In this document: in pieces, positions 39,640 to 46,194 of the stretch
Numbering within the stretch: the stretch's first letter is position 1
How the letters are laid out: each line of letters starts with the position of its first letter
Origin: Flavobacterium piscisymbiosum
Lineage (GTDB): Bacteria; Bacteroidota; Bacteroidia; Flavobacteriales; Flavobacteriaceae
Direction of reading: 5' to 3'
NCBI RefSeq assembly: GCF_020905295.1
Contig: NZ_JAJJMM010000001.1
Location: forward strand, 620,001-684,000
DNA length: 64,000 bases
Made by a program: the position numbers and the translations under genes
The notes under the pieces: generated by a model
Told to the model about the DNA's origin: nothing
Database searches by the model: none
What the model saw: the letters and a program-made list of their open reading frames with translations, nothing else

Positions 39640-40935
39640 TTAGAAATTAAACTGCGCTTGCAAGCGTAATAAATTTCCTTGCTGACGGTTGATAGGAAGC
39701 ACGCTGTCTTCAAAAGTTCTGTCGGCAATGACATATTCTGCTGTAAACTCAAAAGCTTTAATTGGCTGCCATTCTATACCAATTTCATAATCTCTAACCA
39801 CATAACTTCTGGCGTCTTTTTCGTATTTCTTTCCTCCGTCATAATATTGAAATTTGGCAAAAGGATATATGTGTTGCTTTTTGATATCTAATTTATAATT
39901 CAGTAAAACATAACCTCCGTTTAAGTCTGTTTCGTCAACAGTATTGGTTACCGTATTGTATCGCGGTCCTGTACCAATATTATATTCTGTCTGGATTCCG
40001 AAAGGTCTAGGATATAAAACGAAAGTCGCTCCTACCCTTTGATCCTTTACATATTGCGGATCATTTACTTTTACTCCCGGTGAAATTTCGCCGGTAAAAG
40101 CCCATTTTCCTGTATAAGCCTGAATTCCGGGTTCGATAATCTGGCTACCTATTACAAAAGGATATGTTGCTCTTGCGACAACATTAAGATCTCTGTTACC
40201 ATCAAGTTTATTCGCAATTTGTCCGTTGTAGACTCCAAAGGCAAAAACACCATAATCGCCTGAACCTTTAAAACCGTCTTTTACCAACATGGCAAAACGC
40301 TCTCTGATTTCGGCCGGAGCCCAATAAAAGAATATTCCTAAATCACGTTCGTTTAATATCGCGCTATTCATCGCATCATTACGGTCTAACGCTAAGCGTA
40401 CAGAACTTGACTGCATGTTTTCGAAGCCATACGGAATCTTACTTTGTCCCACACGAACTCTATATTCCTTTTTCTTATCAAAAGAAAGATCGAAATACAA
40501 ATCACGAATCTGGACAAAATTCTGGATTCCTGTACTTGGCGAACTGGCAAAATCAGGCTGAAAATAGAAAAACACATTAGGATGTACTTGTCCTGAAAAG
40601 ACTAAGCGTGCGCGACGAATAAACAATCCGTTGTTTGCTTTTGCATCCGGATCTGTAGAGGTTGTTCCCCAGGATTTATCGCACTGATCGCAGGAAACTT
40701 TATCATTTGTAGAGAAAAGACCATTGTAGCGTATTTGTGCATAACCTCTTAAGGAGATTCTGTCATACCAGTGTTCTTCGACTCCTCCGCCAGATTTAGT
40801 ATCTGGAAGTTTTGCTTTGTTGATAGAATCTAAAATACGCATTACTTCGTTTTTTACATCCTGTTTATTTAAATCCTGAGCATTTGCTGCAAAATTTAAC
40901 AGCAATAAAACGGCAACCAATTTTCTTTTTATCAT
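39640..40935 (-). CDS. OprO/OprP-type (phosphate-selective) porin
   Basis: 431 residues from ATG 40933-40935, which begins a signal peptide (IKRKLVAVLLLLNFAANAQ); the frame is open to 40983 but that part covers the promoter. The mature protein matches the OprO/P pattern: SLRGYAQIRYNGLF, FIRRARLVFSGQVHPNVFFYFQPDFA, RVGQSKIPYGFENMQSSS, NERDLGIFFYW, and a final barrel strand LRLQAQFNF. Phosphate selectivity is not proven by this, but 11-bp phased repeats upstream and the PhoR/PhoB-like pair next door support phosphate uptake. Cysteines in CDQCDKSW near residue 70 are unusual for a porin. Confidence 0.88.
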   Translation of the reverse strand: MIKRKLVAVLLLLNFAANAQDLNKQDVKNEVMRILDSINKAKLPDTKSGGGVEEHWYDRISLRGYAQIRYNGLFSTNDKVSCDQCDKSWGTTSTDPDAKANNGLFIRRARLVFSGQVHPNVFFYFQPDFASSPSTGIQNFVQIRDLYFDLSFDKKKEYRVRVGQSKIPYGFENMQSSSVRLALDRNDAMNSAILNERDLGIFFYWAPAEIRERFAMLVKDGFKGSGDYGVFAFGVYNGQIANKLDGNRDLNVVARATYPFVIGSQIIEPGIQAYTGKWAFTGEISPGVKVNDPQYVKDQRVGATFVLYPRPFGIQTEYNIGTGPRYNTVTNTVDETDLNGGYVLLNYKLDIKKQHIYPFAKFQYYDGGKKYEKDARSYVVRDYEIGIEWQPIKAFEFTAEYVIADRTFEDSVLPINRQQGNLLRLQAQFNF

Positions 40936-40966: not shown

Positions 40967-41032
40967 CAAAGATGTGGCATCAATGTTAAGAAATCATTAA
41001 CAGGATGTTACTATAATAAAAATTTAATGTTA
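40967..41032 (-). promoter_or_regulatory. Candidate Pho box and promoter of the porin gene
   Basis: Read on the minus strand, TAACA occurs at 41032-41028, 41010-41006 and 40988-40984, exactly 22 bases apart, with weaker units (TTTTA, TAATG) midway, so five units at 11-bp spacing. Thirteen bases after the last unit comes TTTG of a -7 element (CATCTTTG, 40967-40974). Spacing and unit length match the PhoB box architecture (7-bp half-sites, 11-bp period). Confidence 0.75.
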
Positions 41033-41105
41033 CGAAGTTTTTCCGTAGTTTGATTAATTGTTAAAACGCCATGTTTTACAGCAGTTCGCTTCAATCAGCT
41101 TACAA

Positions 41106-42185
41106 TTATTTAACTTCTGCTTTTATGGTTTTATGCGCTTTTTCTAGTGTAAAAGAGAATTCAGATCCAATTCCGAATTCGCTTTCTACATATACTTTCT
41201 CTTTATGCGCTTCGATTATATGTTTTACAATCGCTAATCCCAGACCAGAACCACCTTCTGAACGGGTTCCGCTTTTATCAACTCTGTAAAAACGTTCAAA
41301 AAGTCTTGGGATATTTTGTTTTTCAACTCCTTCTCCGTTATCACTAATTCTGATTAAAACTTTTTTCTTGGTTAGGTTTACAACACCAACTTCGGTTAAA
41401 CCGCCATCTTTACCATACTTAATAGAATTGACGATCAGGTTCTCTAAAACTTGCTGAATTCTGTCCTGATCTCCGCGAATAATAACCGACTGCACATTTT
41501 TACTTTCAAAAGCAAGTTTAATTTTCTTTTTGTCGGCTTTCATTTCCAACAAATCAAAAACATTCTGAATCAGTTCGACGATATTAAAATCAGTCATATT
41601 CAAATCAAGATCTCCTGATTCCAATTTGGTAATCATGTCCAAATCTTCTACTATATATATAAGGCGCTCCACTCCTTTTTCGGCACGTTTTAAATATTTT
41701 TTCCTAATGGTTTTATCATCCATCGCACCATCCAACAAGGTTGAAACATAACCCTGAACAGTAAACAAAGGTGTTTTAAGTTCGTGCGAAACGTTTCCTA
41801 AAAACTCTCTTCGGTATTGTTCTCGAATTTCGAGCATTTCGATTTCCAGCTTTTTATCGGTAGCAAACTTTTTCACTTCACGCGAAAGCGTTTCCATATC
41901 TGTAGTAATAGGCTGATTGATAAGTGTTGTAGATTCTAATAAAGAAACCTCATCGTAGATTTTCTTTACTCGCCTGTAAATAAAACGTTCTACACGATAT
42001 TGTAATACCAGAAAGGAGAAAATATAAATCGAAATAATAAAGATTATCCCAAATGCAACCTGATGTTTCAGCTGATTTTTATAAAATAAATTCATCAGAA
42101 TCAGCACAAATCCTGTCCCGAAAAGACTGATATATAACGCTGATTTTACAGCAAATTTGTATGTTTTTTTAAAATTAATTTTCAT
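41106..42185 (-). CDS. PhoR-like sensor histidine kinase
   Basis: 359 residues. Two adjacent membrane helices (about 13-33 and 41-61) leave almost no periplasmic loop, as in E. coli PhoR. The HisKA histidine is in FLGNVSHELKTPLFTVQGYVSTLL near 134, and the ATP domain shows NSIKYG, ISDNGEGV and GGSGLGLAIV. There is no HAMP or clear PAS domain. Its partner regulator gene lies upstream on the same strand but is separated by 278 bases of repeats. Neighbouring porin and receptor promoters with Pho-like boxes suggest phosphate sensing. Confidence 0.88.
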   Translation of the reverse strand: MKINFKKTYKFAVKSALYISLFGTGFVLILMNLFYKNQLKHQVAFGIIFIISIYIFSFLVLQYRVERFIYRRVKKIYDEVSLLESTTLINQPITTDMETLSREVKKFATDKKLEIEMLEIREQYRREFLGNVSHELKTPLFTVQGYVSTLLDGAMDDKTIRKKYLKRAEKGVERLIYIVEDLDMITKLESGDLDLNMTDFNIVELIQNVFDLLEMKADKKKIKLAFESKNVQSVIIRGDQDRIQQVLENLIVNSIKYGKDGGLTEVGVVNLTKKKVLIRISDNGEGVEKQNIPRLFERFYRVDKSGTRSEGGSGLGLAIVKHIIEAHKEKVYVESEFGIGSEFSFTLEKAHKTIKAEVK

Positions 42186-42218
42186 TGATATTATTAATCG
42201 TTAAGAGATTATATTTTT

Positions 42219-42380
42219 ACCATATAAGTTATATAAGTTCATTTAAAGTAAAGCGCAATTGTATTATTACATTAAGAACTTAAAAAAAGAAATCTTTGTC
42301 AAAGTTCAAAACTTTGACAAAGATAAACTTCGATTCTAAAAGTATGTATACTATATTTTAAATGAACTTATATTTGGTTC
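42219..42380. repeat. Nested inverted repeats between the kinase and regulator genes
   Basis: Outer parts CCATATAAGTTATATAAGTT at the left and aatgaacttatatttggtt at the right are imperfect arms of the family seen at 21941-22014. Inside, 42292-42306 and 42310-42324 are perfect 15-bp arms (ATCTTTGTCAAAGTT) around 3 bases. After this comes a CTTAGAACCTTAG-type run at 42420-42462. Such a gap is odd within a two-component gene pair. Confidence 0.75.
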
Positions 42381-42463
42381 ATTTTATGCAATTCTAATCA
42401 GTTTAAATCTTCAGCAAAATCACTTAGAACCTTAGTTCCTTAGTAACTTAGCATCTTAAAAAA

Positions 42464-43147
42464 TTAAACTTCAAATTTATAACCAACACCTTTTATGGTT
42501 TTAAAAAGGTCTTCTCCTATTTTTTCGCGCAGTTTTCTGATGTGAACATCGATTGTTCTTCCTCCCACTACAACTTCATTACCCCAAACTTTATCCAGGA
42601 TTTCGTCTCTTTTAAAAACTTTCCCTGGTTTTGAAGCCAATAAATAAAATAATTCGAACTCTTTTCTTGGTAAAGCAATTTCTACATTGCCTTTTATGAT
42701 CTTATATTCCTCACGGTTTATCTCGATTCCGCCAACATTTAAGGTATCGCTAACAACTTCTTGTTCTTTTAACCTTCTTAACAAAGCCTTTACTTTGCTT
42801 ACCAATAATTTTGGTTTTATTGGTTTGGTGATATAGTCATCTGCACCTGCATCAAAACCAGCAACTTGTGAGTAATCTTCGCTTCTGGCAGTCAAGAATG
42901 TTATGATAACATTATTTAATTCCGGGATTTTTCTGATGTGTTCGCAAGCTTCCATTCCATCCATTTCGGCCATCATTACATCCATAATAATTAGGTCCGG
43001 CAATTCTTTCTGAGCCTTTGCTATCGCTTCTTTTCCATTTGAAGCGGTAACAATCTGGTAGCCTTCCTGAGCAAGGTTATAGCCAACGATTTCTAAGATA
43101 TCTGGTTCATCGTCAACTAATAAAATCTTGGTTTGTGTTTTTTTCAT
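42464..43147 (-). CDS. PhoB-like response regulator (OmpR/PhoB family)
   Basis: 227 residues from ATG 43145-43147 (MKKTQTKILLVDDEPDILEI). The receiver domain has the acidic pair DDE near 12-14, the phospho-acceptor aspartate in DLIIMDVMMAEMDG near 55, and KPIKPK with the conserved lysine. The C-terminal winged helix shows KEFELFYLLASKPGKVFKRDEIL and GRTIDVHIRKLREKIG..KGVGYKFEV. It is divergent from the TonB receptor gene, whose promoter carries the phased repeats, and probably binds them. Confidence 0.9.
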   Translation of the reverse strand: MKKTQTKILLVDDEPDILEIVGYNLAQEGYQIVTASNGKEAIAKAQKELPDLIIMDVMMAEMDGMEACEHIRKIPELNNVIITFLTARSEDYSQVAGFDAGADDYITKPIKPKLLVSKVKALLRRLKEQEVVSDTLNVGGIEINREEYKIIKGNVEIALPRKEFELFYLLASKPGKVFKRDEILDKVWGNEVVVGGRTIDVHIRKLREKIGEDLFKTIKGVGYKFEV

Positions 43148-43230
43148 AAATAGCAAAAATTGAGATTTTTACATCAAATTTTCTTCATTATACATTCGAT
43201 GTTTTTTATTTCACAGCGTAAATATACTAA

Positions 43231-43262
43231 CAAAATAACCGTTAAAAATTGCGGTTAACGGT
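43231..43262 (-). promoter_or_regulatory. Inverted repeat at the regulator gene promoter
   Basis: ACCGTTAA (43238-43245... as read on plus) and TTAACGGT (43255-43262) are perfect 8-bp arms with a 9-base spacer. On the minus strand a -7-like TTATTTTG lies at 43231-43238, so the repeat covers about -14 to -40 of the regulator gene promoter. It is distinct from the 11-bp phased array next to it at 43275-43334. Confidence 0.5.
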
Positions 43263-43274
43263 AATTTAATCTGG

Positions 43275-43351
43275 TAACAATTTGATAATCTACAAGACAC
43301 AAAAACATAACAAGTGCCTAACATGAACTTTACACAGCGTTTCTTTCTTTG
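43275..43351 (+). promoter_or_regulatory. Candidate Pho box array and promoter of the TonB receptor gene
   Basis: Six units at exact 11-bp steps: TAACA (43275), TAATC (43286), ACACA (43297), TAACA (43308), TAACA (43319), TTACA (43330). Thirteen bases after the last unit comes TTTG (43348-43351) of a TTTCTTTG -7 element, the same 13-base distance as at the porin promoter. The ATG is at 43381. No -33 TTTG is present, as expected if an activator replaces it. Confidence 0.78.
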
Positions 43352-43380: not shown

Positions 43381-46194
43381 ATGAAATTCAATTTAAAATT
43401 TCTATTAATCACATTATTTATTTGTACGATTTCGGTCGCTCAAAACAAAGGTACGATTTCTGGTGTATTAACCGACAAAGAAACCAACAATCAACCTTTA
43501 CCTTTCGCAAATGTTTTAGTAAAAGGGACTAACACAAGCGCGAACACTGACATTGACGGAAAATATTCGTTAAGTGTAAATCCGGGAAATTATATTCTTA
43601 TTTTTAGTTTCGTTGGATATGAATCTGTAGAACAACCCGTAATTGTTAAAGCAAATGAAACTATTACTGTAAATCAGGTGCTATCATCTGGAGGTTATAC
43701 TCTAAAAGATGTTGTTGTAAAATCTACTGCAAGCAAAGAAAAAGAAACAGCCTTATTACTGGAACAAAAAAATGCTGTTGTCATTAAACAAAGTATTGGT
43801 GCACAGGAAATGTCCCGAAAAGGAGTTAGCGACGTCGAGGAAGGTTTGACTAAAATAACCGGAATCACCAAAGTAGACGGAAGAGGTTTATTTGTAAGAG
43901 GTCTGGAAGATCGTTACAATAGTCTTTTACTTAATGATTTGGCTGTTCCATCAAACAATCCTTTTAAAAAAATCATTCCTTTAGATATTTTTCCAACGGA
44001 TATTGTAAGTGTTTTAGAAACATACAAAACTTTCAATCCTAATTTATACGGTGATTTTGCAGGAGCTACTTTTAATATCGTAACAACTGCTACTGGAAAA
44101 AGTCAAACGAAAATTAATTTTGGAGCTGGTTATACTGTCAATAATAACCTTAAAAAGTTCCTTATTTCCCGAGATGCAACTTCAACATCTGATTTCTTCG
44201 GATTTTCTGGCAACGAAAGAGATTTACCATCTGCATTGACTAAAACTCCAAGCAACCAAACATTAACTTCAGACCAGGCTGCAAACGGATTTGGTTCAGG
44301 TTTTGACGTTAAAAGTGATGTAGCTCCTTTAAATACAAGTTTTGGAGTTACTCATTCAGAAAAATTCAATGTAGGCAAAAAACAAAACGTATTTCAATAT
44401 TTGATATCACTTAACTATGAGAATAAATATCAAATTAGAAGTGGAGCTGATAGAATTTTTAATACTGCACAAGGAAACTATGACAACGATTTAACTACAA
44501 CACAGTATAAATTCATCACAAATTCATCTGCATTATTGGGATTAACTTATAAAACAAAAAGACTTTCTCTTACATCAAACACGATCTATCTAAAATCGAC
44601 AGAGAATTTAATACAAGATCAGTTAGGTTACACAAATTCTAATGCAGCCCAAACAAATGGTTTTATCAGAATGAACCAATTGCAAGAATCTACTTTTTTT
44701 AATACACAATTGTTTGGTAATTATAAAATAACCGAAGATGAAAGACACACTGTAAAATCCGGTATTTCATACTCTACAACACAGTACAAACTTCCAGACA
44801 GAAAATCTTTCAAGGGTATTAGAATTGATGACAATACAACTGCAATATCTTATACAGGTAATAGTTTAACGAGACAATATCTTGATTTTAAAGGTGACCA
44901 ACATATCTCTGGTTTATTAGAATACAATTGGAAATTTGGAAATGAAGATTTAAGCAAATCGCACAAACTTACAGCGGGATATAGCGGTTATATGAACAAA
45001 ATGGGATCTGAATTTAGATTTTTGGTATCACAAAATTTAAACTCAAATAGTGCTACTTTCCCAACTAATACTCCTGATGCTACTTTAAAAAACGAAATTT
45101 TAAACGACAATTTCACTTATAGAGAAGGAACAAACTCAACTTACAAAGCAATGCTGGAAGAGTTTATTAATGCTGGATACTTAGATTTAGCCTTAAAATT
45201 TTCTGAAAAATTTGAATTGAATGTAGGTGCAAGAGTTGAACAGACTCATAGAGAGACTAAATACAAATCAACAGGAAGTTTTGAAGATCCATATCAGATT
45301 ATAACTACTGATAAAACAGATATTTTGCCGTCTTTAAACACAAAATATATTATAAATGAGAAATCAAATTTAAGATTTGCAGCTTCAAAAACAATTACAA
45401 GACCTGTAATTATGGAGTCTTATCCTCTGGAGTTTGTAAATCCGGATGGTACTATAGAAAGAGGTAATGAATTTTTGACTAATAGCGCTAATTATAATTT
45501 TGATTTGAAATACGAATTGTTCCCGACAAGTAAGGAATTAATTTCTGCTACAATTTTCACCAAAATGATAGATAATCCTATCGAAAGATTATTTACAAAC
45601 TCAGCAGGAAGTGGTGGACAAATTATAACATATGGTAATTCTAATAAAGCTTTATTATATGGTGCTGAATTCGAATTCTTATTTCAATTAGAAAGAATTT
45701 CAAAATCATTATCTAATTTCTCTGTAGGTGCAAATGCCTCATTAATGGATACGAAAGTAACTATCGAAAAAACTTTTGAAAATGGAGTTAACAATCCTGA
45801 AACTATTGCAGTTGATAATAACCCATCCCGAAAACTACAAGGTGCATCTCCTTGGATAATGAATGCTGATCTTAGATATGATTCTGAATTTAGTGAAAAA
45901 TGGAAAAGCTCTATGACTATGGTATATAATCTTTACAGTAAAAGAATCTATGCGGTAGGTACAAATGGATTAGATAATTATTATGAAATGCCGTTTGGTA
46001 AACTTGATTTTATCTGGCAAAACAAAATTTCAGACAAATTTGATGTTAAACTTTCTATAGACAACATATTAAACCCGGCTTATAAAATACAAATGGGCGA
46101 CAAGAGCAGAATCGAAATAACTGAAACCGATCTAACAGTAAGAGAATATAAAAAAGGAGTTGGTTTCTCTATGAACATATCTTACACATTCTAA
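43381..46194 (+). CDS. TonB-dependent receptor with carboxypeptidase-like domain
   Basis: 937 residues. Signal peptide (LLITLFICTISVAQ), a carboxypeptidase-regulatory-like domain at about 22-105 (GTISGVLTDKETNNQPLPFANVLVKG), a plug (about 130-240; DVEEGLTKITGITKVDGRGLFVRGLEDRYNSLLLND) and a 22-strand-type barrel ending VGFSMNISYTF. It has no SusD partner; the next gene is a lipoprotein. The promoter carries 11-bp phased repeats, so the ligand may be phosphate-containing. Neither ligand nor regulation is shown directly. Confidence 0.92.
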   Translation: MKFNLKFLLITLFICTISVAQNKGTISGVLTDKETNNQPLPFANVLVKGTNTSANTDIDGKYSLSVNPGNYILIFSFVGYESVEQPVIVKANETITVNQVLSSGGYTLKDVVVKSTASKEKETALLLEQKNAVVIKQSIGAQEMSRKGVSDVEEGLTKITGITKVDGRGLFVRGLEDRYNSLLLNDLAVPSNNPFKKIIPLDIFPTDIVSVLETYKTFNPNLYGDFAGATFNIVTTATGKSQTKINFGAGYTVNNNLKKFLISRDATSTSDFFGFSGNERDLPSALTKTPSNQTLTSDQAANGFGSGFDVKSDVAPLNTSFGVTHSEKFNVGKKQNVFQYLISLNYENKYQIRSGADRIFNTAQGNYDNDLTTTQYKFITNSSALLGLTYKTKRLSLTSNTIYLKSTENLIQDQLGYTNSNAAQTNGFIRMNQLQESTFFNTQLFGNYKITEDERHTVKSGISYSTTQYKLPDRKSFKGIRIDDNTTAISYTGNSLTRQYLDFKGDQHISGLLEYNWKFGNEDLSKSHKLTAGYSGYMNKMGSEFRFLVSQNLNSNSATFPTNTPDATLKNEILNDNFTYREGTNSTYKAMLEEFINAGYLDLALKFSEKFELNVGARVEQTHRETKYKSTGSFEDPYQIITTDKTDILPSLNTKYIINEKSNLRFAASKTITRPVIMESYPLEFVNPDGTIERGNEFLTNSANYNFDLKYELFPTSKELISATIFTKMIDNPIERLFTNSAGSGGQIITYGNSNKALLYGAEFEFLFQLERISKSLSNFSVGANASLMDTKVTIEKTFENGVNNPETIAVDNNPSRKLQGASPWIMNADLRYDSEFSEKWKSSMTMVYNLYSKRIYAVGTNGLDNYYEMPFGKLDFIWQNKISDKFDVKLSIDNILNPAYKIQMGDKSRIEITETDLTVREYKKGVGFSMNISYTF

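Follow-up and report, generated by a model that had tools for sequence, protein, structure and literature searches.

Tandem arrays of short direct repeats at two promoters of Flavobacterium piscisymbiosum are, judged from their sequence and distribution, very probably the Pho box of the Flavobacteriaceae, that is, the landing sites of the response regulator PhoB. Both arrays lie in a 64,000-nt stretch of the genome (NZ_JAJJMM010000001.1, positions 620,001–684,000; GCF_020905295.1), hereafter the window, one of them before the gene for an OprO/P-type porin and the other before the gene for a TonB-dependent receptor (Tbdt), with genes for a PhoR-like histidine kinase and a PhoB-like response regulator between them. 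The putative operator consists of two to six half-sites of the form TAA(C/T)A, arranged head-to-tail every 11 bp, with 13 nt separating the proximal end of the array from the TTTG of the -7 element. As read from the DNA of the genus, it precedes pst, pit, OprO/P-porin and TonB-receptor/lipoprotein genes and, in the window's genome, receptor-phytase genes. The two arrays and their -7 elements are the following:

40984..41032, minus strand: porin promoter array of five 11-bp registers, TAACA/TTTTA/TAACA/TAATG/TAACA, read from the DNA
40967..40974, minus strand: porin promoter -7 element CATCTTTG, TAnnTTTG with one mismatch (consensus from PMC6847099)
43275..43334, plus strand: TonB-receptor promoter array of six 11-bp registers, TAACA/TAATC/ACACA/TAACA/TAACA/TTACA, read from the DNA and from orthologous promoters
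43344..43351, plus strand: receptor promoter -7 element TTTCTTTG, one mismatch to TAnnTTTG, read from the DNA

On the minus strand, the porin units begin at 41032 (TAACA), 41021 (TTTTA), 41010 (TAACA), 40999 (TAATG) and 40988 (TAACA), the proximal unit ending at 40984 and being followed after 13 nt by TTTG at 40970–40967. The receptor units begin on the plus strand at 43275 (TAACA), 43286 (TAATC), 43297 (ACACA), 43308 (TAACA), 43319 (TAACA) and 43330 (TTACA), the last ending at 43334, again 13 nt before TTTG at 43348–43351. The coordinates of the TAACA units, the 11-bp step and the 13-nt distance to TTTG given in a first-pass annotation were all borne out when the DNA was read again. The six receptor units of that annotation stand in position and register, but three of the six are imperfect, so that the array is not uniformly TAACA, and its -7 elements both contain TTTG while neither TTTCTTTG nor CATCTTTG is a perfect TAnnTTTG. 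In a scan of both strands of the window for five units, 13 nt and an exact TTTG, scored over the 25 unit letters, the porin and receptor sites are the top two with 20/25 each; the third-best site scores 17 and overlaps the porin array on the opposite strand, and the next scores 16. Sixty dinucleotide shuffles of the window gave maxima of 14–17, none reaching 20, in agreement with the earlier contention that two such matching sites are unlikely to arise by chance.

The arrangement is conserved well beyond the window. The phoB regulator was used to fetch 80 loci from public genome contigs, and 79 of these (L108 was dropped, its upstream being too short) together with the window provided 80 phoB upstream sequences of 250 nt each, in which TAACA pairs are most often spaced by 11 bp (32 pairs), 44 bp (27) and 33 bp (17), against a mean of 3 per distance. 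Of 15 porin upstreams, the window's included, 11 have a unit with TTTG exactly 13 nt away; in L038 and L039, two of the remaining four, the distance is 14 nt. A 56-nt model of four units, 13 nt and TTTG was refined on 65 upstreams of receptor and porin genes; 57 of them pass it (45/50 receptors and 12/15 porins), a figure that measures conservation and is not an independent test, the model being self-trained and the best position taken. The passing promoters include those of receptors only ~30–32% identical to the window's receptor, and 41 of the 57 passing sites, hand-picked to thin near-duplicates (model set A1), align gap-free. Half-site frequencies are T 0.98, A 0.77, A 0.98, C 0.84 and A 0.65. 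As in a Pho box, there are two or more direct-repeat half-sites at an 11-bp period.

Tests outside the training set are provided by the phosphate transporters. A sequence-only model (R1), trained on receptor and porin promoters alone with no pit or pst genes included, was run on 61 Flavobacterium genomes and found a match at E <= 0.01 in 53; those close to pit, pst or the phoB locus were assigned by position against separate transporter searches. In G009, G010, G011 and G014 the match lies ~750 nt before the PHO4 (pit) gene, a distance that corresponds to the DUF47 gene usually found ahead of pit; in G012 it lies ~100 nt before a PHO4-type gene, giving five genomes with a matched pit promoter. 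Matches within ~90 nt before a pstS-type gene were found in four genomes (G017, G019, G031 and G058, the gene of the last scoring below the family cut-off).

A strict signature, TAA[CT]-N7-T[AT]AC-N14-TTTG within 150 nt upstream, is present before 14/30 pst operons, several of whose upstreams are shorter than 150 nt where the locus ends, and before 9/26 DUF47-pit operons, four of 30 pit loci having been dropped (two with the gene not found or cut, two without DUF47). The same signature occurs in 0/178 sampled upstreams, taken from the genes of twenty stretches spaced through the window's genome; for pst against this sample Fisher's test gives 7e-14, with related loci counted as independent. 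The pst and pit operons belong to other Flavobacterium genomes than the window's, which supplied this control. When the gap was varied from 6 to 22 and the period from 7 to 15, only a gap of 13 and a period of 11 yielded more than one match, in the pst set as well as the pit set. Twenty pstS genes have a full upstream of their own (at the other 10 of the 30 pst loci a gene closely precedes pstS or the upstream is short); an anchor unit is present in 14, and TAAY stands at -11 and -22 in 14/14, the chosen anchor of L281 being one register downstream of a better TTTG. The relaxed form TAAY-11-TAAY-13-TTYG is found in 14/20 pst, 11/26 pit and 0/178 sampled upstreams. Among 499 other upstreams from phoB neighbourhoods there are 10 strict matches, each upstream of a phosphate-type gene or of the lipoprotein gene belonging to the locus (three PstS (TIGR02136), four Porin_O_P, one DUF47/PhoU_div and two FII homologues). 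The proposal of a flavobacterial Pho box, already made in the first-pass annotation, is thus supported by the pst and pit operons of other genomes as set against the sampled upstreams. The same annotation had expected a genome scan to recover pst, phosphatase and other porin genes; pst, pit and other PF07396 porins are indeed matched, and the phosphatases are not, the PhoA1-, PhoA2- and EndA-type genes of the window's genome lacking the signature.

Within the window's genome, upstreams were compared with 177 sampled ones by a register score (four units, 13 nt and TTTG). Above all 177 stand the receptor and porin promoters, both of which were in the training set, the promoter of a receptor-phytase operon, with TTCG in place of TTTG, and that of an FII-homologous lipoprotein gene (of the FI or the FIII type), which has the strict signature and, by eye, five phased registers. 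The EndA and PUSI FecR upstreams are borderline, 7/177 sampled upstreams scoring as high in each case, and the upstreams of phoB (in its own orientation), phoR, the glycosyltransferase, PhoA1, PhoA2, the PUSI extracytoplasmic function (ECF) sigma factor and PI-PLC, and the PUSII genes are indistinguishable from the sample. No array was found before two further FII paralogues (L168 and L169), and the sole PstS match in this genome is weak, none exceeding the family cut-off. The list of array-bearing genes holds some of the expected kinds and misses several. In L178 (13876–13958), between ECF sigma and FecR genes of a PUSI-like cluster, TAACT, TAATG and TAATA are phased, with 17 nt to TTTG.

The R1 scan of the window's genome is incomplete, since only 150 of its 4799 first-look candidates were scored; its top matches are the two training sites, and a third (E 0.004) precedes a gene without evident phosphate link. 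Most of 19 non-training places inspected together with their genes have no fitting downstream gene, the fitting ones including DUF47-pit and a receptor with PF13620, and the FII-homologous and receptor-phytase promoters escaped the scan, both being found through their genes. A simpler whole-genome pattern, TAACA-N6-TAACA-N6-TAACA with two mismatches, was rejected as unspecific alone (44 matches against 81 for the reversed pattern), the receptor promoter being among its two best matches. Near-identical array-like matches at L146 and L147 (G000:C1:4661101, 569810 and 578532) are apparent repeat copies, with a transposase-like frame near L147.

The genes around the two arrays are as follows:

39640..40935, minus strand: OprO/P-type porin gene (PF07396 Porin_O_P, E 3.8e-35)
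41106..42185, minus strand: PhoR-like histidine kinase (HisKA and HATPase_c), matching Fjoh_0543 PhoR in gene order (PMC8115612)
42464..43147, minus strand: PhoB-like response regulator (Response_reg and Trans_reg_C), the candidate array binder, matching Fjoh_0544 PhoB in gene order
43381..46194, plus strand: TonB-dependent receptor (PF00593, PF13715, PF07715), gene-order counterpart of Fjoh_0545 (PMC8115612)
46329..47546, plus strand: FII-type lipoprotein, gene-order counterpart of Fjoh_0546 (PMC8115612), with zero Pfam matches

Domain matches thereby confirm the earlier assignment of a PhoR-like kinase and a PhoB-like regulator between the promoters and of an OprO/P-type porin behind one of them. 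The regulator combines a receiver with an OmpR/PhoB winged-helix domain and adjoins the kinase gene, as expected of a PhoB-type regulator, its best solved-structure chains being MtrA and RegX3. The order glycosyltransferase, OprP, PhoR, PhoB, Tbdt, FII lipoprotein is the same at the phoBR locus of F. johnsoniae (PMC8115612); counterparts in the window's genome were assigned via gene order, Pfam family or homology, without a tree. Expression in F. johnsoniae during depletion of inorganic phosphate (Pi) is reported in Table 1 of that paper, whose FC column is taken here as log2. The Tbdt Fjoh_0545 (+8.02) and the FII lipoprotein Fjoh_0546 (+9.91) are strongly induced, as are FI Fjoh_3856 (+14.47), FIII Fjoh_4889 (+11.56), the receptor-phytase genes (Tbdt Fjoh_1368 +9.22, phytase +5.76), the Tbdt Fjoh_3841 (+7.69), glycosyltransferase (+5.42) and PhoX, which is among the most induced (+12.50); PhoB changes by +3.06 and PhoR by 0.76 (not significant). 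This Pho regulon is described by expression data only, the terms 'Pho box' and 'promoter' occurring 0 times in the main text of the paper (PMC8115612).

Several observations weigh against the Pho-box reading. The distance to the core promoter is fixed, as in a Pho box, except in 12/26 pit upstreams, the window's genome included, in which by eye the units stand ~10 bp further from TTTG; the DUF47-pit upstream of the window's genome, with its units ~10 bp too far, is borderline (3/177 sampled upstreams as high), as is that of the receptor with PF13620 (5/177). In the set of 499 upstreams, a gap of 22 yields four matches too. The location before pst and other phosphate-acquisition genes does not extend to PhoX or to the phosphatases of the window's genome, and the upstreams of PhoA1, EndA, PUSI, PUSII and the glycosyltransferase fall within the sampled range, their counterparts being mostly induced. 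PhoX (PF05787) is absent from the window's genome and present in 14/81 genomes of the genus, where 0/14 upstreams have the strict or relaxed signature; confidence in the Pho-box reading was lowered slightly because this in-register test was negative. One PhoX upstream, L186, has a register score of 18.3, against 12.7 for the highest sampled upstream, well before the gene, and L191 and L192 also exceed 12.7 but at or inside the start codon. The L186 upstream, the only one of the 14 with a good score well clear of the gene, carries TAATA, TTACT and TTACA as in-register units, followed after 13 nt by TTTG. The shifted pit group (L198, L203, L209, L211–L217, L220 and L221) has two TTAAC units 11 bp apart, about one helical turn further from TTTG than in the 13-nt class.

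The adverse expression data bear on whether PhoB activates from the arrays. OprP of F. johnsoniae (Fjoh_0542) is not induced (-1.3, not significant; PMC8115612), and expression therefore supports the receptor promoter only, not the porin promoter. Deletion of both phoP and phoR in Riemerella anatipestifer raises pstS 8-fold (PMC5399024), a change of opposite sign that argues against simple activation there, the orthology of Riemerella PhoP to this PhoB being presumed. These two results, together with the pit promoter group whose units lie further upstream, are what would be expected if PhoB acted on the arrays as a repressor at some genes, or as activator or repressor according to the gene. 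We regard this as unlikely: the array genes with counterpart expression data, OprP excepted, are strongly induced in Pi depletion, and the conserved spacing is the activator-like 13 nt.

Regulators of the OmpR/PhoB family generally bind 10–11-bp direct repeats, and one or more other members with the same 11-bp grammar could bind the arrays, PhoB being one user or not the main one. A further point against the Pho-box reading falls here, namely three TTAAC units at 11 bp beside another two-component system (L154 6963–7009, G000:C1:5421862–5421908, minus strand). In the window's genome they stand upstream of a gene of the outer-membrane receptor type; divergent from it runs a histidine kinase gene, which is followed by a response-regulator-like frame, and another regulator may use a similar grammar there. 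At that site, however, the sequence 13 nt on reads TTTT rather than TTTG, and the signature as a whole concentrates on pst, pit, OprO/P porins, the receptor-phytase operon and the phoB locus while being absent from the sampled upstreams, all of which makes this alternative improbable. That the arrays reflect helically phased AT-rich promoter DNA or chance, with no dedicated regulator, is scarcely credible even though F. johnsoniae promoters in general have AT-rich motifs with their centres at -18 and -28 (PMC6847099), given that neither form of the signature occurs in the sampled upstreams, that shuffles never reach the window sites, that the C of TAAC is conserved and that a model trained without pst and pit recovered both.

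The promoter of phoB itself is arranged differently, two features being proposed in the window:

43219..43226, minus strand: candidate phoB -7 element TATATTTA, from the pattern in phoB upstreams
43256..43270, plus strand: two-unit array TAAC...TAAT, inverted relative to phoB and out of register with the receptor array, a candidate autoregulatory site from a survey of inverted arrays

Arrays pointing away from phoB are present in 78/80 phoB upstreams, the Flavobacterium count including the receptor array itself, and arrays oriented with phoB in 5/80. In the loci L076–L110 without L108 (n=34), an inverted array is found in 32 while a match of this receptor adjoins in only 5; the neighbour's promoter therefore does not by itself account for the inversion. 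A TAnnTTT[AG] box lies 37–40 nt from an edge of the array in 24 of these 34 upstreams, but this pattern is a loose one for AT-rich DNA, and the same loci also show other distances. The inverted, more distant array probably mediates autoregulation of phoB.

In Escherichia coli, PhoB contacts the sigma factor. A comparable mechanism is the most likely one for the arrays if they are bound by PhoB: Pi starvation would lead PhoR to phosphorylate PhoB, phosphorylated PhoB would occupy the array as head-to-tail dimers, and the proximal dimer would contact the primary sigma factor, holding it at a promoter without a good -33 contact in the manner of class II activation. Tandem binding of PhoB has been described in E. 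coli (PMC4415409). In the numbering of PMC6847099, TTTG occupies -8 to -5 and ordinary promoters show little -33 signal; the units therefore fall at -26/-22, -37/-33, -48/-44 and further, and cover the place of the weak -33 element. More tentatively, and with more doubt than confidence on our part, the Pho operator may be modular, its two to six phased half-sites standing in for the contact that the divergent primary sigma factor makes at -33, the number and quality of units setting the strength of the starvation response, and the inverted array, 37–40 nt from a -7-like box, tuning phoB differently.

Such an operator is a known kind of element in a lineage-specific form and not a new kind of system. 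The Pho box of E. coli, like the arrays, adjoins the core promoter at pst and further Pi genes. In Bacillus subtilis, the PhoP box consists of TTAACA-like repeats at ~11-bp spacing, half-site letters that are nearly those of the arrays described here, and the phylum, the sigma factor and the core promoter differ from those of Flavobacterium. With the E. coli box, 11-bp units of CTGTCAT direct repeats bound by PhoB, the arrays share tandem 11-bp half-sites, bound head-to-tail in E. coli (PMC4415409) and putatively so here, whereas the half-site here is TAAYA and not CTGTCAT, and there are up to 5–6 units, 13 nt from the Bacteroidetes -7 TTTG and inverted at phoB. The nearest published motif is that of PhoP in R. 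anatipestifer, placed in the Flavobacteriaceae by the same paper, where a phosphate-type PhoPR has TTTAACA as its most conserved nucleotides in DNA affinity purification sequencing and binds its own operon at -156 to -121 in electrophoretic mobility shift assays (PMC9603813), the presumed orthology limiting this comparison as well. The paper describes the motif as similar to E. coli ArcA, and no mention of an 11-bp array, a fixed -7 distance or a pst/Pho regulon was found in its available text. Searches of open-access full text, as far as they went, turned up no definition of a Pho box for Flavobacterium or Bacteroidota: no usable box is given in the accessible parts of the Bacteroides fragilis PhoB paper, which reports mobility shift assays on the pstC promoter (PMC3547664), of the F. 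psychrophilum promoter map, in which 'PhoB' occurs 0 times (PMC9723704), of the PafA paper (PMC8812569), or of a 2025 review of the Pho system that does not cover Bacteroidetes (PMC12351708).

With such an operator defined, much of the Pho regulon in a large environmental family would become predictable from sequence. This would take in TonB receptors and lipoproteins whose function is unknown and whose expression rises strongly when phosphate is scarce. The arrays would also offer a system in which to test how initiation by the unusual primary sigma factor of the Bacteroidetes depends on an activator.

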